From positions 1 to 23,861 of the IMG/VR virus record IMGVR_UViG_3300043409_002173: a DNA stretch of 23,861 nt. The stretch is one strand, 5' to 3'. Below are positions 1 through 11,977 of this stretch, in pieces; the stretch's first letter is position 1; the number at the start of each line of letters is the position of its first letter. The stretch comes from a virus. The notes below the pieces were generated by a model that saw nothing but the letters and a program-made list of their open reading frames with translations, was not told where the DNA came from and searched no databases. Made by a program: the position numbers and the translations under genes.

Positions 1-136
1 AAGTACTGTTTTAGTCGAACAAAACAATGATGACTGGAAAAAATCTCAAAATTATAAAATAAGAGATAATCAATATCTTAGAATTTCAGGTAACATTTTT
101 CAAAATCCTGAATTATTTGAAAGTACAAAAAAATAA
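1..136 (+). CDS. Partial hypothetical protein, C-terminal 44 residues
   Basis: An open frame enters from the left edge in the frame starting at base 2 and ends at TAA 134-136. The visible 44 residues are polar and rich in Asn, Lys and Gln (start STVLVEQNNDDW, end FESTKK). I recognise no family. It reads in the same direction as the cassette genes that follow and ends 41 bases before the first cassette core at 177-183. It may be the gene of a preceding cassette, although the 40-base gap is too short for an inverted-repeat site like the others, or it may be the host gene next to the array. Confidence 0.6.
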   Translation, partial: STVLVEQNNDDWKKSQNYKIRDNQYLRISGNIFQNPELFESTKK

Positions 137-217
137 AACAATTAATCACTAATACTACTGCAGGGTTCTACTAGCTGTTAGAAGCTGACTTTTTATTAAT
201 TAATTAAATTTCAAAAA

Positions 218-439
218 ATGATTAAATTATTCAAAAAAAACGGATTATACGGAATAGAAGAAGACGGAAATGATAGTGTGCCTTTTGTTTATGAGAATAA
301 AGAATGCGCTATTGATGAGTGGAAATATTTTGAAATAATCAATATATCAGAGGGTTTTCTTCCAAAAAAAAGAAGTATAGATGAAATAATAGATATAGAA
401 ATTTCATTAAGGAATAAAAATGAATATAGTCCTGAATAA
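218..439 (+). CDS. Cassette 1 hypothetical protein, 73 aa
   Basis: A small acidic and lysine-rich protein with no signal peptide, membrane segment or motif I recognise. The start ATG follows an A-rich stretch (TTTCAAAAAATG), the usual Bacteroidota initiation context. The gene fills the space between the proposed cassette joint at 177/178 and the attC-like site at 452-584. The stop lies only 12 bases before that site, which is typical of compact cassettes carrying one gene. No promoter is evident just upstream, so expression would depend on read-through from the left. Confidence 0.65.
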   Translation: MIKLFKKNGLYGIEEDGNDSVPFVYENKECAIDEWKYFEIINISEGFLPKKRSIDEIIDIEISLRNKNEYSPE

Positions 440-451
440 TAATAAGCTTGC

Positions 452-595
452 ACATAACGTTAAAGCATAACGGTAGTTTAGGAAAAATAAGCCTAATCTA
501 TCGAAGTTAAAAACTAAGATTACAAGTATAAAACAAATTATAAATCAAGCCTTATGCCTAAATTACTATTATGCAGTGTTAGCAAATCGGCTTTT
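452..595 (+). repeat. attC-like site 1; copy 1 of a 141-bp near-identical repeat
   Basis: The inverted repeat has left arm 452-482 (ACATAAC core, then GCATAACGGTAGTTTAGG) and right arm 557-584 (CCTAAATTACTATTATGC, then core GTTAGCA at 578-584), separated by an AT-rich loop. The 141 bases 455-595 recur at 1373-1513 with three substitutions. The copy includes the first 17 bases of the next cassette (TTAGCAAATCGGCTTTT), which cassettes 2 and 4 share. Pairing is poorer in this copy than in copy 2 because of the substitutions inside the arms. The role as a recombination site is inferred from architecture. Confidence 0.7.
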
Positions 596-609
596 AATAT
601 TCGGAAACT

Positions 610-834
610 ATGATTACAGCAAAAGAATTATTTGACAAAATGTTAGAAGAAAATGACGAATGTACATCAACTGAAATGATGATAGCATTTGCGAAATTAC
701 ACGTTGAGGAAGCTTTGAAACAAGCTTATATTAAAGCAGAATCGAGATATTATCATTCGCCTGACAGATATGTATTATGCGTAATTGAGAAGGAATCAAT
801 AATAAATGCTTATTCTTTGGACGGCATTGTTTAG
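610..834 (+). CDS. Cassette 2 conserved hypothetical protein, 74 aa (phage-type FAKLHV protein)
   Basis: A small protein starting MITAKELFDKM, with a central helix-like stretch FAKLHVEEALKQA (about residues 27-39) and a C-terminus with EKESIINAYSLDGI. From memory this layout (AKLHV..AL, then a charged segment and ESIINAYP-like ending) is common among small accessory proteins of Bacteroidota phages and mobile elements. Its function is unknown to me. The gene lies between joint 578/579 and the attC-like site at 840-1008, with the stop 5 bases before the left core. The ATG follows CGGAAACT, with no clear promoter or Shine-Dalgarno sequence. Confidence 0.7.
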   Translation: MITAKELFDKMLEENDECTSTEMMIAFAKLHVEEALKQAYIKAESRYYHSPDRYVLCVIEKESIINAYSLDGIV

Positions 835-839
835 CTGTT

Positions 840-1008
840 TGCTAACGGATTAGTGCTTGGCGAAGGCTGGGCATTGGAATACAAATGTTTAAATTAAGTA
901 CAAATGTCAAATAGAAATACAAATGCTGAATAAAGCACCACAGCCCAATAGAAGTAAAAGGCTCAAAACTTACACTTCTGCCCCTATTGCTACAAACCCT
1001 TGTTAGCA
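840..1008 (+). other. attC-like site 2
   Basis: Left core TGCTAAC (840-846) and right core GTTAGCA (1002-1008) are exact reverse complements. The arms continue with imperfect pairing: GGATTAGTGC on the left against GCTACAAACCC on the right, then GGCGAAG against CTTCTGCCCC. The loop is the longest in the array and holds three ACAAATG words at 881, 900 and 920. A frame beginning at ATG 904 runs into the next cassette (stop at 1021-1023) with three internal stops; its right-arm part reads CPYCYKPLLA. The flank AGCTGTTTGCTAAC complements the start of cassette 2, not cassette 3, supporting its assignment to the 3' end of cassette 2. Confidence 0.6.
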
Positions 1009-1056
1009 GAAGTGGCGGGTTAATTTACAAGGGTATAATTTAAAAATTTAAACAAA

Positions 1057-1362
1057 ATGCAAAAAGTAACAAACAAATTAAGAGTATCACATTATCCACA
1101 AATCCCTTGCAAACCTTTTATTGTAGAAGTAAAAGACGAGGAACAAGCATTACTAATTAGAGAAACATTAGCAAATCAACATTTGTTTTTGTTTGATAAC
1201 AATATGATACCAGACTATTCAAATGTAATTACAGTAGAAATGTGGGACGAAAATTCAGACGGAGAAGGTAATGCTGATTGGGTGGATTACTACAATGAAA
1301 ACGAAAATATGGAATTTGACGAATTTGTTGAAACGTATTTGTCTGCCGAAGTGGGGTCTTAG
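1057..1362 (+). CDS. Cassette 3 conserved hypothetical protein, 101 aa
   Basis: The protein has a basic N-terminal part with VSHYPQIPCKPFIVEVKDE (about residues 10-28), a middle with HLFLFDNNMIPDYSN (about residues 43-57), and a strongly acidic C-terminal half rich in Asp, Glu and Asn (WDENSDGEGNADWVDYYNE). I believe similar small proteins occur in Bacteroidota phages and plasmids, but I cannot name a family or function. The ATG follows TTTAAACAAA, a typical A-rich start context. The stop lies just before the left core of attC-like site 3 (1370-1376), so this is the single gene of its cassette. Confidence 0.7.
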   Translation: MQKVTNKLRVSHYPQIPCKPFIVEVKDEEQALLIRETLANQHLFLFDNNMIPDYSNVITVEMWDENSDGEGNADWVDYYNENENMEFDEFVETYLSAEVGS

Positions 1363-1369
1363 TCATTTC

Positions 1370-1513
1370 TGCTAACGTTAAAGCATAACAGTAGTTTAGG
1401 AAAAATAAGCCTAATCTACCGAAGTTAAAAACTAAGATTACAAGTATAAAACAAATTATAAATCAAGCCTTATGCCTAAATTACTGTTATGCAGTGTTAG
1501 CAAATCGGCTTTT
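1370..1513 (+). repeat. attC-like site 3; copy 2 of the 141-bp near-identical repeat
   Basis: This repeats 455-595 over bases 1373-1513 with three differences. Left core TGCTAAC (1370-1376) matches right core GTTAGCA (1496-1502) exactly. Arms GCATAACAGTAGTTTAGG and CCTAAATTACTGTTATGC pair with a single G-T wobble, better than in copy 1. One frame is open from 1395 straight through the right core into the gene of cassette 4, with a GTG inside the core (1494-1496) but no upstream ATG. The flank TCATTTCTGCTAAC complements the start of cassette 3 (GTTAGCAGAAGTG). Confidence 0.75.
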
Positions 1514-1526
1514 TAAAACACTAATT

Positions 1527-1712
1527 ATGAAATTAAAATGTAGATTAACACACGCTTTTGCTGAATTGAAAATAGATGAAATAGAAACAACAGTTTACAA
1601 AAGTTGCCCGCAAGAAATTGAAATACTAATTGACAACTTAACCGATGTTATTGATGATTTATCTAAATTAATAGGCAAAGATTTTAGTTTTTCTTTAACC
1701 GATGATGAGTAA
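1527..1712 (+). CDS. Cassette 4 hypothetical protein, 61 aa
   Basis: A small protein beginning MKLKCRLTHAF, probably helical through the middle (residues about 9-50), with an acidic tail ending LTDDE. I recognise no family. I chose ATG 1527, which follows AACACTAATT inside the cassette. The same frame stays open upstream through the recombination site, where GTG 1494 could in principle start a protein 11 residues longer. The stop at 1710-1712 lies 6 bases before the left core of attC-like site 4, so cassette 4 is very compact. Confidence 0.6.
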   Translation: MKLKCRLTHAFAELKIDEIETTVYKSCPQEIEILIDNLTDVIDDLSKLIGKDFSFSLTDDE

Positions 1713-1718
1713 GCTGTT

Positions 1719-1840
1719 TGCTAACGCTCCCTCGCTTGGCTTAGTGCCGAGTTATGAAAATATAATTTCTAATTAAAAACAAAACGTGATGAAAAACGAT
1801 AAAAACGAAAATAAGGCATTGAGCCAAACGAGTGTTAGTA
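1719..1840 (+). other. attC-like site 4
   Basis: This is one of the clearest inverted repeats of the array. The left arm 1719-1748 reads TGCTAACGCTCCC, then TCGCTTGGCTTAGTGCC. The right arm 1815-1840 reads GGCATTGAGCCAAACG, then AGTGTTAGTA. Pairing is good apart from a bulge of about four bases in the left arm, the kind of asymmetry attC sites use to mark the recombining strand. The loop contains AATTAAAAACAAAACG and an ATG at 1789 whose frame runs 27 codons across the joint before stopping at 1870-1872 in cassette 5. The flank AAGCTGTTTGCTAAC complements the start of cassette 4. Confidence 0.72.
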
Positions 1841-1889
1841 GCTGTTTACAAATTATTTTACATTTATTTTAAAAATATTTGTAATTTTA

Positions 1890-1939
1890 TTTGGTAGTTA
1901 CAAAATTAGTCGTATATTTGTAAAAGAAATAACGACTAA
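1890..1939 (+). promoter_or_regulatory. Bacteroidota-type promoter with operator-like inverted repeat, cassette 5
   Basis: TTTG at 1890-1893 is followed by exactly 19 bases and then TATATTTG at 1913-1920, matching the Bacteroidota primary sigma consensus TTTG-N19-TAnnTTTG. Transcription would start just downstream, about 20 to 25 bases before the ATG at 1951. An exact 8-base inverted repeat, TTAGTCGT (1906-1913) and ACGACTAA (1932-1939), brackets the -7 element and probable start site. A dimeric repressor bound there would block the promoter, so self-regulation by a cassette product is plausible but inferred. Confidence 0.7.
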
Positions 1940-1950
1940 AACAAAGCAAA

Positions 1951-2217
1951 ATGTACTTACAATTTATTCAAAAAGATATGTCAATGAAGTTAATAGACAA
2001 AAAATTAACTTTTGAAACTTTAAAAATATCTAATAATCGTTTAGATTTTAAATTTAAAACATATAATGAAAAATTACAATGTGGCGGTTGGGTTACTGAA
2101 GGTTATTTTTTAGGTAATATAGATGATATTTCAGAAAATATATTTGATTTATTTGATAGTGTTTATCTTAAAAAAAGAAGTTTAGACGGAATTAAGATTT
2201 ACTCAAAAACAAAATAG
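1951..2217 (+). CDS. Cassette 5 gene A, hypothetical protein, 88 aa
   Basis: First of three tightly packed genes behind the cassette's own promoter. The protein is lysine-rich with alternating hydrophobic residues suggesting beta strands, a CGGWVTEGYF segment (about residues 44-53), and a C-terminus ending GIKIYSKTK. No known domain is recognised. The start ATG at 1951 follows AAAGCAA; in-frame Met codons at residues 11 and 13 are alternatives. The stop is separated by a single base from the ATG of gene B, so the two are probably translated together. A promoter plus paired small genes is a layout often seen for toxin-antitoxin or regulatory cassettes, but nothing in the sequence proves it. 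Confidence 0.62.
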   Translation: MYLQFIQKDMSMKLIDKKLTFETLKISNNRLDFKFKTYNEKLQCGGWVTEGYFLGNIDDISENIFDLFDSVYLKKRSLDGIKIYSKTK

Positions 2218-2218
2218 T

Positions 2219-2458
2219 ATGAATGTAGCAGATTATTTAAAAGCAAAAAATATTGAGATTTTTAGTTCTCAAACATTATTAATTACAAAAGAAGGTAAAA
2301 ATATTTCTTTGTTTGATTTATTAAACGAATATGCGCAAATATATTCTAAAGATTATTTATGTTTTTCTAAAACTATTGATTTAATAGATAATAGTAACGA
2401 TTTAAAAGAATTTGAAGTTAACGTAAATAGATTTTTTAAATGCAAAGACAATCAATAA
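2219..2458 (+). CDS. Cassette 5 gene B, hypothetical protein, 79 aa
   Basis: Second gene of the cassette 5 operon, starting MNVADYLKAKNIEIF, with the ATG one base after the stop of gene A. It is probably mixed alpha/beta, with a helical centre (SLFDLLNEYAQIYSKDYL, about residues 31-48). The C-terminal helix ends VNRFFKCKDNQ. I recognise no family. Its 3' end overlaps the start of gene C by 19 bases. The arrangement implies translational coupling, and gene A, B or C could supply the factor that binds the inverted repeat at the promoter. Confidence 0.62.
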   Translation: MNVADYLKAKNIEIFSSQTLLITKEGKNISLFDLLNEYAQIYSKDYLCFSKTIDLIDNSNDLKEFEVNVNRFFKCKDNQ

Positions 2459-2607
2459 TAGTTTTTATTCAAGGCGAAAGAATAGAAACTTACGGAAATT
2501 TAAAAAAGTGTTGTGAGTTTGAAAACTTAAAATATCACACTTTAGCACGTTTAAAATTTCCTATTCGGATAAACGATGTAGTTATACACAAAACGTTGTT
2601 TAAATAG
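2440..2607 (+). CDS. Cassette 5 gene C, small protein, 55 aa
   Basis: An ATG at 2440, inside the last codons of gene B, opens a 55-residue basic protein: MQRQSIIVFIQGERIETYG, then NLKKCCEFENLKYHTLARLKFPI, ending VVIHKTLFK. The pattern of a short hydrophobic strand, ETYGNLKKCCE and a YHTLARLKFP helix resembles small proteins I recall from flavobacterial prophages. The NLKK...YHTLARLKFP stretch could be a helix-turn-helix that binds DNA, which would fit the operator upstream. This is inference. Its TAG ends 1 base before the core region of attC-like site 5. Confidence 0.55.
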   Translation: MQRQSIIVFIQGERIETYGNLKKCCEFENLKYHTLARLKFPIRINDVVIHKTLFK

Positions 2608-2608
2608 C

Positions 2609-2742
2609 TACTAACGGTTCGTGGCTTTGTATTGTTGCCAATAAAATAATACCTAATCTTTAAATTAAAAACAATGAATACAAGTACAAAAAAATCATTA
2701 AATGAAGCCGAATGTGGCAATAAGTCAAAACCACTGTTACAA
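2609..2742 (+). other. attC-like site 5
   Basis: Left arm 2609-2639 (TACTAAC core, then GGTTCGTGGC and TTTGTATTGTTGCC) pairs with right arm 2716-2742 (GGCAATAAGTCAAAACC, then ACTGTTACAA). A bulge of about four bases lies in the left arm at the same place as in site 4. The loop shares sequence with that of sites 1 and 3, including CCTAATCT, TTAAAAAC and ACAAGTA. Unlike those, it contains an ATG at 2674 that opens a frame crossing the right core into cassette 6. The flank AAATAGCTACTAAC complements the start of cassette 5 (GTTAGTAGCTGTTTA), supporting circular-unit logic. Confidence 0.7.
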
Positions 2743-2937
2743 GCAGTACATCTTTTCGGAGGATTAGATAAATATTTTTCGGATTTAGAAGATTATGAGT
2801 TTAGCGTATGTTGTGATGAATGTGGTAATGAAAAATTACAATTTAGACGTACCACTTCAAATAATGAAGTTCATTGGTGTGATAAATGTAAAAGAGAACA
2901 AACTACTTGTAAACGTCCTAATGAAGACGATTATTAG
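2674..2937 (+). CDS. Cassette 6 zinc-ribbon-like protein, 87 aa, start codon inside attC-like site 5
   Basis: Residues 43-75 hold two metal-binding pairs, CCDECGNEKL and, after FRRTTSNNEVHW, CDKCKRE. This CxxC...CxxC arrangement is a zinc ribbon; a further Cys follows at about residue 79. Such ribbons bind nucleic acid or protein. The only in-frame ATG is at 2674, inside the loop of the preceding recombination site, so roughly the first 21 residues are written by the site and the rest by the cassette. No ATG, GTG or TTG occurs in frame between the joint and the ribbon. A GGAGG sits at 2759-2763, but no usual in-frame start follows it before the ribbon. Either the protein truly straddles the joint or an uncommon start is used. 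Confidence 0.55.
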   Translation: MNTSTKKSLNEAECGNKSKPLLQAVHLFGGLDKYFSDLEDYEFSVCCDECGNEKLQFRRTTSNNEVHWCDKCKREQTTCKRPNEDDY

Positions 2938-2943
2938 TATTGC

Positions 2944-3022
2944 TTGTAACATTTGTATAAACGTATTACGTTTATATTTTATTAATAAATCCCCCCATAA
3001 ACCGAACGTTTACAAGTTGTAA
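2944..3022. other. Degenerate attC-like site 6 at the array-phage boundary
   Basis: Left part TTGTAAC (2944-2950), ATTTGTATAAACGTATTACG; right part ATAAACCGAACG, then TTTACAAGTTGTAAA to 3022. After inverting one arm they align over nearly 40 bases with small gaps, extending to GCAATA against GCCAATA outside the cores. The left core complements the start of cassette 6 (GTTACAAGCA). In the right arm the expected GTTAC reads GTAAA, so the crossover triplet is altered and the site may be dead. The right half also encodes the C-terminus of the - strand gene 2982-3200. It could instead be only a bidirectional terminator between convergent units. Confidence 0.45.
2956..2980 (+). terminator. Probable terminator of the cassette transcripts
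   Basis: TATAAACGTA (2956-2965), a single T, then TACGTTTATA (2967-2976) form a perfect 10-base-pair inverted repeat followed on the + strand by TTTT. It lies 18 bases after the stop of the last cassette gene, where + strand cassette genes meet - strand phage genes. It is nested in the left arm of attC-like site 6. With a single-base centre the folded stem would lose a few inner pairs, so its strength is uncertain. Confidence 0.45.
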
Positions 3023-3200
3023 AAAGCCAATACACTAATAAAAACAAAGACAATACAAAAGGACTACACCATAACATAGCGCAATTCCAATCAGTTGATT
3101 TAGCAACTTCGGAGACTACGGTAGTTGTGGTGTTGTACTTTTCTGTTTCCACCCTTATAGTGCTGCAACTTGCGAAAAGTAAAGGCAATAATTTTTTCAT
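2982..3200 (-). CDS. Small lipoprotein with C-terminal membrane segment; candidate unimolecular spanin
   Basis: A 72-residue protein with a short lipoprotein-type signal, MKKLLPLLFASC, with the lipid-modified Cys likely at residue 12. A roughly 33-residue hydrophilic stretch rich in Thr and Val follows, then a hydrophobic segment PFVLSLFLLVYWLF (about 47-60) and a short basic tail. An outer-membrane lipid anchor plus a C-terminal inner-membrane segment is the layout of unimolecular spanins, which join the two membranes in the last step of Gram-negative lysis. Adjacency to the holin (ATGA overlap, 4 bases) fits. The periplasmic part is much shorter than in known u-spanins, so the role is inferred. 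Its 3' end lies inside the inverted repeat at the array boundary. Confidence 0.5.
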   Translation of the reverse strand: MKKLLPLLFASCSTIRVETEKYNTTTTVVSEVAKSTDWNCAMLWCSPFVLSLFLLVYWLFTTCKRSVYGGIY

Positions 3201-3769
3201 TTTAATATCTTGTTTATTTTAGCTTCAAAAATACGTTCAGCTATTTTGAATATAGGTGCTTTTTTACCGTGTAGATATTCGGCATTATCCCCTATGCTTT
3301 TAAAATCATAATACCAAAATATTGCTAATGGTGCTTTCATTATTATTTCGTAAGTAAAGCCTATTGCTAAATTATCAAAATCGTTTTCTAAGAAAGTTTT
3401 TACAACAAATAAATACATCAATAGAGTAAAACATTTAAAGAATGTAAACTTTAACTTCTTTGGGTCAAAAGCGAATTTTTCAGATAATTTTATATTCTCC
3501 TCATAATTCAAAGATTGTGCCAACTCAAAATATTCCTTAGACTTTTTCTTTGATTTTTGAACGCCGTAATAGGCATCAGTCAAAGTGGTTAGTATCACCA
3601 TAGATAATAAAAAATTCGATACTCCAAATAATTTTTCTCCAAAAGTATGAGATAAAAATTGAATGATAGCTGTAAAACTCAGTGCTCTAAAGGTTAATTC
3701 ATAACTATTTAAGCTGTAAAATTCACAAACTTTTTTTAAATATAAATAGACAGGGAAGTAATATCTCAT
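3197..3769 (-). CDS. Phage holin, holin_4/TcdE-like family
   Basis: A 190-residue membrane protein with hydrophobic segments at about residues 28-41, 48-66, 108-124 and 135-152. Between them sits LTDAYYGVQKSKKK (63-76), the Asp-x-x-x-Gly loop followed by lysines that marks the holin_4 (toxin secretion/lysis) family. The C-terminal DFKSIGDNAEYLHGKKAP (155-172) matches the conserved E/D..SI.EN...G..P tail of that family. Holins permeabilise the inner membrane to time lysis. It overlaps its neighbours on both sides by 4 bases, forming a lysis block with the spanin candidate and the 108-residue membrane protein. No endolysin is adjacent, which is odd. Confidence 0.72.
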   Translation of the reverse strand: MRYYFPVYLYLKKVCEFYSLNSYELTFRALSFTAIIQFLSHTFGEKLFGVSNFLLSMVILTTLTDAYYGVQKSKKKSKEYFELAQSLNYEENIKLSEKFAFDPKKLKFTFFKCFTLLMYLFVVKTFLENDFDNLAIGFTYEIIMKAPLAIFWYYDFKSIGDNAEYLHGKKAPIFKIAERIFEAKINKILK

Positions 3770-10781: not shown

Positions 10782-11243
10782 TTATTTTTTAAAATTTAAT
10801 TTTGTTACATCGAAAGTCTTTCCCCCGAAGTTTACGCCTGTATTAACTGGTTTAGTTGGCTCTTGTTTATGTGAAAGGTTAGCCTTTAAATCCGTTAATT
10901 CTTGTCTTAAATTGGTAATTTCAGCAGTAGCCAAACCAAATTTACTTTGCAAATCATTAAAAGCAGTTACAACTGTTTCTACAAATTCAGCAGTTTGGTC
11001 TTCTTCTTTTTTCACAACGCTTGCGATTTTTCCGCTTGCAACACTCACGGTATAAACAATTTCATCAATTGTCAAAACGTGTTCGCCATCTGTTGCATCT
11101 ACTGATACACCTTCTTTTACCTGTGCGATGTCACCAATAGCCGAGAAAACCAAAGGCTCTCCAGCGACATCTTGTAATTCTAATTTTGCTTGTGGCTCTT
11201 TTTTTACAAAGCCTAATTCAGCAAGTTTCTCTCTCAAGTTCAT
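10782..11243 (-). CDS. Scaffold or capsid-assembly-like protein, 153 aa
   Basis: Residues about 20-81 form a small beta domain with VSVDATDGEHVLTIDEIVY and SVASGKIASVVKKEE, a pattern (dGe..l.d....v..GkI..i) found in capsid assembly proteins of Bacteroidota phages. Residues about 85-124 form a coiled coil (AEFVETVVTAFNDLQ, then ITNLRQELTDLKANL). A basic C-terminus follows (FDVTKLNFKK), suited to binding capsid subunits. It lies between the protease and the capsid protein, the classic place for a scaffold that is degraded during prohead maturation. Name and role are inferred from layout. Confidence 0.62.
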   Translation of the reverse strand: MNLREKLAELGFVKKEPQAKLELQDVAGEPLVFSAIGDIAQVKEGVSVDATDGEHVLTIDEIVYTVSVASGKIASVVKKEEDQTAEFVETVVTAFNDLQSKFGLATAEITNLRQELTDLKANLSHKQEPTKPVNTGVNFGGKTFDVTKLNFKK

Positions 11244-11255
11244 AGTTATTAATTA

Positions 11256-11750
11256 TTAATTTATTAAATTCAAAGTTTTTAAATCTTTTTTTGTCAAAAA
11301 TACATCATTTTTCTTTATAACGTCAAAAAGTTCAGCGGATATTTGCGTATTCTCTTTAAAAATCTTATATACAAATTCATCTTCTACTTCTAACATTTCA
11401 GACATTTGTTTTAAATATTCAGTTGTAACTCGTTCGTTTTCAATAGTAAATCCTGCTGGATGATACATAAATTCAGCCGTATCTGTTGTAAATCTAATAT
11501 CACCGAGCAAAAACAAAAGAAAACCAGCACTATATGCATAGTTATCTACATTGGTAACGAAAACAAAACCCTCTTTTTTCTTGGTTATTATTTGCGACTC
11601 CATAGAACGTAAAACCTTGACAAATCCACCTTTGCTTTCTATGTCTAAGACCACTATTTTAGGTTGTTTCAGCTCAGCTATAAAAGCAGTAAACCTTCTT
11701 TCTAAATCTAAGCTAAAATCCTCTTTTACTTCAAATATTATTTCTTCCAT
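11256..11750 (-). CDS. ClpP-type prohead maturation protease, 164 aa
   Basis: A ClpP-fold serine protease with a complete triad visible: Ser74 in DNYAYSAGF, His97 in FMYHPAGF, and Asp149 in KKNDVFLTKKDL. The last aligns with the ClpP segment around its catalytic Asp (RDRFLSAxEA). SKGGFV at 39-44 is the oxyanion-loop glycine pair. Spacing Ser to His (23 residues) is close to ClpP. Phages use such proteases to cleave scaffold and capsid termini during prohead maturation, and the next two genes are the scaffold-like and capsid proteins. The protein is shorter than cellular ClpP and stands alone rather than fused to the scaffold. The start overlaps the preceding gene by 13 bases. Confidence 0.82.
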   Translation of the reverse strand: MEEIIFEVKEDFSLDLERRFTAFIAELKQPKIVVLDIESKGGFVKVLRSMESQIITKKKEGFVFVTNVDNYAYSAGFLLFLLGDIRFTTDTAEFMYHPAGFTIENERVTTEYLKQMSEMLEVEDEFVYKIFKENTQISAELFDVIKKNDVFLTKKDLKTLNLIN

Positions 11751-11977
11751 TTTTCACAAATATTTTTCTGTCCTGTTGCGTAAATTTTAGTTGCAAAAGG
11801 GCAATTACACTTTCTACACCCCCATCCCTTTGATTCTACAATTTTAAAATCTACAAAAGTACTAAAAACAGACTCTATTTTTTCTTCGCAGTCTAAGCAA
11901 GTAGATAACCTCTCTGTTGCCAAAGGGGTTATCTCTTTTGTCGTTGCTTTTAAAACTGCTTTTATAAAATCTATCAT
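11738..11977 (-). CDS. Small zinc-finger-like phage protein, 79 aa
   Basis: Two metal-ligand groups are visible: CLDC (residues 27-30) and CRKCNCPFATK (54-64), with a further Cys near the end (NICEKW). The pattern R...C..C, then CrkCnCp...K and C..W is one I recall from small proteins near the tape measure and protease genes of Bacteroidota phages. The function is unknown; it may be structural or bind DNA. It sits 24 bases after the tape measure stop and overlaps the protease start by 13 bases. Confidence 0.68.
   Translation of the reverse strand: MIDFIKAVLKATTKEITPLATERLSTCLDCEEKIESVFSTFVDFKIVESKGWGCRKCNCPFATKIYATGQKNICEKWKK

Follow-up and report, generated by a model that had tools for sequence, protein, structure and literature searches.

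Recombination sites that bear a start codon and the first codons of a reading frame in cassette arrays of viruses of Flavobacterium-like bacteria

The stretch of DNA analyzed here (the window) is a linear virus record of 23,861 bases. Small genes on the + strand, with attC-like sites between them, occupy its left 3 kb, and the remainder carries genes on the − strand that read, from translations alone, as phage structural genes. The features of the array are given in Table 1. Five of its cassettes begin with 9 to 10 nt that are the reverse complement of the cassette's own downstream core, the expected mark of cassettes that circularize at this crossover; in cassette 6, the left core of the downstream site (TGCTTGTAAC) is the reverse complement of GTTACAAGCA at 2736. 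Unlike these five, the first cassette of the window (about 150-460), which was not reported by the cassette finder, shows no match between its start (GTTAGAAGC) and its downstream core (CACATAAC). The cassette protein at 1057-1362 matched Pfam family PF17420 (superinfection exclusion gene product 17; E, 4.7e-17). A search of positions 1 to 3300 against Rfam gave zero matches.

Table 1. Coordinates of sites, cassettes, and coding parts in the left part of the window
Feature	Position	Strand	Remarks
Site 1, non-leader type	455-595	+	98% identical to site 3 (1373-1513)
Site 4, class B leader site	1722-1844	+	ATG at 1789; MKNDKNENKALSQTSV
Cassette 5, upstream neighbor, with site 5 as its attC	1834-2615	+	Three small ORFs with their own starts
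Site 5, attC-like recombination site	2605-2745	+	Same class in 36 viral stretches and in cultured phages
Site 5, left half	2612-2615 (left core)		Left core TAAC; left arm GTGGCTTTGTATTGTTGCC
Site 5, right half	from 2736 (right core)		Right arm GGCAATAAGTCAAAACCAC; right core GTTACAAGCA
Site-encoded leader with start codon	2674-2736	+	21 residues, MNTSTKKSLNEAECGNKSKPL; ATG at 2674-2676
Recombination joint G|TT	2736-2737	+	Leader frame (CTG)(TTA); right core G at 2736
Cassette 6, coding part	2737-2937	+	Cys4 (CxxC...CxxC) ribbon-like; 66 codons plus stop; own start absent
Downstream site of cassette 6	2941-3017	+	Leader ATG absent; array ends here
Five cassettes with start complementary to downstream core	578-846, 1002-1376, 1496-1725, 1834-2615, 2736-2950		

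Sites 1 and 3 were rejected as leader sites; the cassettes that follow them have their own ATG. The leader of site 4 is idle in the window, where its frame meets a stop 11 codons beyond the joint and cassette 5 has its own ATG at 1951; an identical leader is fused in frame to a 98-aa protein on another contig (L019:1721-2014). In site 5, the loop is long and A/T rich, and the two arms pair by inspection. Folded as bottom-strand DNA, the site was no better than shuffled sequences (z, 0.40); folded as top-strand RNA, it was weakly better (z, −1.63), with the ATG in a large loop region. Initiation in Bacteroidota proceeds without Shine-Dalgarno sequences, and an ATG in an unpaired region suits such initiation.

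The open reading frame (ORF) at 2674-2937 takes residues 1 to 21 from site 5 and the following 66 codons from cassette 6. That the ribbon gene has its only in-frame ATG in the loop of this site, and reads without a stop through the right core into the cassette, had been proposed at the outset from the sequence; both points were borne out, the frame ending with TAG at 2935-2937. Within the 66 codons at 2737-2934 there were zero in-frame ATG, GTG, TTG, CTG, ATT, ATC, or ATA codons (the starts of translation table 11), so that the ATG of site 5 is the only possible start. Codon log-likelihood ratios, trained on the long − strand genes of the window, were +15.3 for cassette 6 in the leader frame, against −8.3 and −17.9 when the two alternative + frames were read; the remaining cassette ORFs of the window scored 16.5 to 27.4, save that at 2440-2604 (−1.4). 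An overlapping competitor ORF (2795-3022) was rejected (codon score, −7.7). The ribbon protein matched zero Pfam, NCBIfam, or PHROG families, and the 87-aa ORF product had zero homologues at E values up to 1 in annotated phage and plasmid collections.

Another contig, L009, encodes a homologue of the ribbon protein (75% amino acid identity over 61 residues; pS, 0.79; pN, 0.15). The L009 gene is of the ordinary kind, with an ATG of its own, and the GTTA core is absent from the roughly 530 bases around it. A homologue that starts downstream of the joint had been named as evidence to look for against a site-encoded start; the ATG in L009 maps to the joint itself, and the window lacks a start codon at that position, an outcome in favor of the site-encoded start. 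The comparison therefore points to cassette 6 as essentially the whole of a conserved protein that has lost its own start, for which the site ATG would substitute.

When the whole ORF was used as a query for related loci, five contigs matched the site-encoded part only, each running in frame into a different protein. The right-arm DNA pattern of this class of sites (class A) matched 36 viral stretches. A looser right-arm pattern matched six genome stretches; four held real sites (three Flavobacterium genomes and one contig from a Patescibacteria bin), and two (L043 and L047) were dismissed as chance. The Patescibacteria-binned contig (L048) has a class A leader site with a fused cassette and may be a misbinned phage contig. 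A two-mismatch search of 398 genomes of the genus Flavobacterium gave any match in 24 genomes, mostly chance; matches in G037 and G038 were exact, one (L054) was real on inspection, another (L064) was chance on inspection, and the rest were assessed by matched letters only. Matches of site 5 to Enterocloster plasmids (21 to 26% covered) were rejected as low-complexity chance. A small gene (MQRQSII...) lies directly upstream of a class A leader site in two phages (window 2440-2607 and L022:1817-1987).

After 3 near-duplicates were dropped from 45 class A sites, 42 were counted as unique, although L007 and L027 are probably one site; loci L002 to L006 were excluded from the count and re-fetched within later loci. 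An in-frame ATG lies 13 or 14 codons ahead of the right-arm motif GNKSKPLL in 39 of the 42, and GTG takes its place in one. At 40 sites (L007 and L010 were excluded at 30 codons, as the contig ends first), the leader frame stayed open for at least 30 codons beyond the joint in 35, and the other two frames did so in 2 and 1 (Fisher p, 2e-21 for 35/40 versus 3/80, a guide value only because the sites are related). Where a second ATG occurred in another phase of a class A site, an open frame followed it in 1 of 11 cases. The 34 fused ORFs kept from class A fell into 29 clusters of cassette proteins. This recurrence with open leader frames is not chance. The original prediction, that a shared leader would be added to every cassette that inserts in frame, is supported for class A across these 29 clusters, with two restrictions: the phase must match, and 5 of the 40 sites (L009, L011 [site 812], L031, L037 [site 8849], and L038, which lacks its left arm and was counted as a failure) meet a stop within 9 codons.

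Whether translation begins in the site was judged from the cassette parts of the fused ORFs, with the caveat that related sites and cassettes are non-independent samples. Profile matches above the cut-off comprised YopX in five, NUMOD4, N6_N4_Mtase, a C5 methylase, and PAPS_reduct. A domain that begins between the joint and the first in-cassette ATG, GTG, or TTG speaks for a start in the site. Such a domain was seen for NUMOD4 in L033 (residues 39 to 86; first in-cassette start at 56), N6_N4_Mtase in L035 (from residue 42; start at 49), a PHROG DNA methyltransferase in L018:959-1624 (from 17; start at 44), NF008572 in phage snusmum6-1 (from 27; start at 36), and DUF551 in L041 (from 27, slightly below the cut-off; start at 67). 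Weaker cases, with a possible GTG or TTG, come from L022 (C5 methylase) and L014 (PAPS-reductase-like protein). Homologues with their own ATG, whose alignment starts near the homologue's N terminus, were available for 22 fused ORFs, and in 19 the alignment begins ahead of the first in-cassette ATG, a criterion that is loose for some of the 19 (e.g., L096 to L098) because a GTG or TTG lies near the joint. Of the remaining three, L014_3161 and L019_5762 turned out to have their own start, the leader frame being incidental, and L095 is ambiguous. An A at position −3 was present at 37 of 39 leader ATGs, at 6 of 39 other-frame ATGs in the same sites, and in 23 of 29 cassettes with their own ATG. 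The fused cassettes are under purifying selection. An internal start is possible in 29 of 95 fused ORFs, since GTG or TTG (rarely ATG) occurs within their first 10 codons.

Sites outside class A were surveyed among 106 cassettes with complementarity between the cassette start and its downstream core, drawn from 22 loci plus the window (duplicates L029 and L036 and a chance chain at window positions 10966-11909 were excluded, and loci without a chain were not counted). At the non-class A sites, frames with an in-site ATG were open in 31 of 43 cases and frames without one in 23 of 186. Under a stricter rule, the start lay in the site for 42 of the 106 cassettes (class A, 17/21; others, 25/85). 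Two further classes, E and B, were scanned in the viral collection. In class E, phase 0 with ATG was open in 23 of 26 sites, and three DNA methyltransferases were also found in phase 1; in class B, to which site 4 of the window belongs, phase 2 with ATG was open in 11 of 12 sites, the sole failure being site 4 itself, and the other frames in 6 of 34. These classes act like class A, each with its own reading phase.

In all, 95 fused ORFs were collected, with 80 distinct leaders and 71 protein clusters. Wherever the alignment of a homologous pair begins at the joint, both members have the same phase (35 of 35 pairs, 19 of them across site classes); among pairs that are not joint anchored (mostly distant methyltransferases), the phase differs in 22 of 31. 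In two pairs of contigs, cassette identity begins at the joint: L020 and L025 are 97% identical in the cassette, 79% in the site loop, and 51% upstream, and L018 and L037 are 93.5%, 76%, and 49% identical, respectively. A cassette of Flavobacterium succinicans behind a class A site (L044) is 85% identical to one behind a class E site (L092). In this comparison of records, one cassette is found behind distinct leaders, with unrelated DNA upstream, and behind distinct site classes, which speaks for exchange of cassettes between sites at the crossover. Start-less cassettes of the YopX family (L012, L018, L028, L045, L046, L007, L078, and L102) have a near-constant joint (ANRL/SSRL), and YopX genes with their own ATG are found elsewhere.

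Site-started genes were also present in three cultured Flavobacterium phages (snusmum6-1, filifjonk9-1, and 11b), so metagenome assembly artifacts are ruled out as a general cause; a DNA search with site 5 matched phages 11b and snusmum6. The annotated DNA methyltransferase of snusmum6-1 (host, LMO6) begins at the site ATG, and its 21-residue leader is the same as that of L035, where the methyltransferase is different. In filifjonk9-1 (host, LMO9), three methyltransferase genes in a row differ in their starts: gp009 and gp010 each begin in a site, the two sites belonging to different classes, whereas gp011 relies on its own ATG. Gene PHG11b_5 of phage 11b has a class A-like leader and a cassette part without ATG, GTG, or TTG. 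DNA methyltransferases are common as cassettes, as in filifjonk9-1 (L125, 897-3282) and snusmum6-1 (L075). Among Baltic phages, plating efficiency on LMO6 has been linked to the presence of a specific methyltransferase (PMC7077304).

The integron integrase model TIGR02249 had no match above the cut-off in 36 records, including the window; a shorter, sub-cut-off Xer/IntI-like recombinase was present in six of the 36. No intI beside an attI was found in these records, and the window, which is a fragment, has no recombinase. A 267-aa Xer/IntI-like tyrosine recombinase lies 52 to 53 bases past the last cassette core in L022 (11028-11831) and L008 (2848-3651); the L022 protein scored highest against the XerA model, below the cut-off. 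This recombinase is a candidate enzyme for the exchange. It is codirectional with the array, at the opposite end from the intI of integrons, and is followed by an opposite-strand ORF of 384 to 387 aa that reads as a tyrosine integrase.

Taken as a mechanism, site 5 would be an attC-type site of a phage-borne, integron-like cassette array, whose unpaired, A/T-rich loop bears a start codon in a normal Flavobacterium-type context. A stop-free frame would leave the site over the G|TT crossover in fixed phase, and cassettes of matching phase would be genes without a start codon or 5' untranslated region (UTR), in which the conserved protein begins a few codons from the joint. Recombined behind a leader site, probably by an integron-type tyrosine recombinase, such a cassette would yield a fusion of a leader of about 15 to 22 residues and the cassette protein; after excision and reinsertion at another site, the leader would be swapped and the frame unchanged. 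Because many swapped-in genes have no start of their own, they would be read as fusions to whichever site precedes them. The comparisons directly establish the layout of the site, the coding character of the frame, the lack of other starts, the recurrence, the constancy of phase, and the swapping of leaders from record to record. We infer that translation begins at the site ATG, and it is very probable, judging from the sequences compared here, that ATG-less cassettes behind such sites are translated as leader-cassette fusions.

The leaders themselves bear on what they are for. Between the left arm and the ATG, the distance is evenly spread modulo 3 (11/11/11), while only two distances, 39 and 42 nt, occur between the ATG and the right arm. 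Selection on leader amino acids was looked for via pN/pS and none was found in the loop part (1.08 and 1.43); the right arm has zero amino acid changes but doubles as a DNA stem. Start and frame are kept and the peptide drifts, which is why we favor reading the leader as a portable start for translation, followed by a neutral linker; on these comparisons, initiation plus linker would most likely be the use of the leader. The idea that the site supplies the N terminus of the next protein would accordingly be narrowed to a start codon and linker, the leader's amino acids appearing unconstrained. A functional tag for localization, stability, or partner binding, needed by all fused proteins, seems to us quite improbable: class A leaders have a recognizable consensus (N-E-A-E-x-G-N-K-S-K-P-L-L), and identical leaders precede different methyltransferases in L035, snusmum6-1, and L095, but the loop ratios speak against it, stem pairing accounts for the conservation of the right arm, and leaders of different site classes are unrelated.

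The open frame might instead act in translational coupling or help to open up the hairpin that attC forms in the mRNA, in the manner of ORF-11 of attI1 and of short attC ORFs in class 1 integrons, with fusion a by-product. Coupling has a published precedent (PMC8876359) and would suit the drifting peptide as well as L009 and L031, in which the leader ends just ahead of the cassette's own ATG. However, the frame runs on into the cassette protein at the 35 open class A sites, and reinitiation has no place to start in the 6 of 95 fused ORFs whose cassette part is without any ATG, GTG, or TTG; we consider this account unlikely. That the leader frame is incidental, the true start being an in-cassette codon that went unrecognized or the genes being inactive, fits the two own-start genes L014_3161 and L019_5762, yet it is hard to square with the frame bias, the domains that start upstream of any start codon, the purifying selection, and the absence of any table 11 start codon from cassette 6 of the window, and its probability is very small.

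The integron core consensus is RYYYAAC/GTTRRRY. The cores GTTACAA and GTTAGCA deviate from RRRY by inspection, and GTT is fixed by the construction of the finder. The arrays resemble integron cassettes and their attC sites in the G|TT crossover, the inverted core and arm repeats, and the complementarity between the start of a cassette and the core downstream of it. A classical integron cassette brings its own start codon along with a short 5' UTR, whereas here the upstream site has the start and the cassette none. Shufflons and phage tail-fiber inversion likewise use site-specific recombination to link constant N-terminal to variable C-terminal parts; their constant part is an essential domain, in contrast to the short, unconstrained, in-site leader and unrelated partner proteins seen here.

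Tandem, same-direction small genes and methyltransferase cassettes are shared with phage-borne CALINs, for which a GTTRRRY core is given and among which an attC of the flavobacterial Polaribacter phage P12002L is used by IntI1; the terms "start codon," "Flavobacterium," and "Bacteroid" do not occur in that paper (PMC9892861). The closest functional likeness is to ORF-11 and ORF-18 of attI1, where a recombination site with a start codon and a crossover-spanning frame aids poorly initiating cassettes; ORF-11 belongs to a single fixed attI1 site and acts by coupling, whereas here many attC-like sites would act by fusion (PMC8876359). The ORF-11 stop comes from the cassette core (TAG, positions 3 to 5 of GTTRRRY), whereas the core phases used here have no stop; a core-supplied stop with reinitiation at the cassette start is not what was found at class A sites, where 35 of 40 are open. 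N termini that vary with cassette context are also known from the gcuF1-blaOXA-28 fusion and AAC(6')-Ib variants (PMC8876359, PMC3656343), which in these sources are single descriptions, that of gcuF1-blaOXA-28 with loss of function; the fusions here recur with a fixed phase and seem to be the usual mode in about 40% of sampled cassettes (42/106). Coupling of the ORF-11 type, short ORFs within attC, individual fusions, and clusters of attC sites on phages are all described in the open-access literature, where a search for start codons encoded by attC as a recurring trait found no account of them.

Integron sites are usually treated as noncoding cassette tails, and here the site would be part of the next gene, with the consequence for annotation that gene starts are to be placed outside the cassette. 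Site-borne starts would explain how an array is expressed without a 5' UTR or start for each cassette, under a phase rule that limits which cassettes work behind which site. Three cultured models are at hand: phage 11b, and snusmum6-1 and filifjonk9-1, which belong to a collection where plating efficiency was linked to methyltransferase content (PMC7077304). We give an even chance to a wider reading, in which the arrays are a large pool of start-less genes in two or three phase classes, and the fixed-phase sites are portable translation starts. If it is true, the order of cassettes would decide which genes are on and with which N terminus, recombination would switch the expression of anti-restriction and host-takeover genes, and methyltransferase cassettes of this type may set host range in cultured Muminvirus phages.
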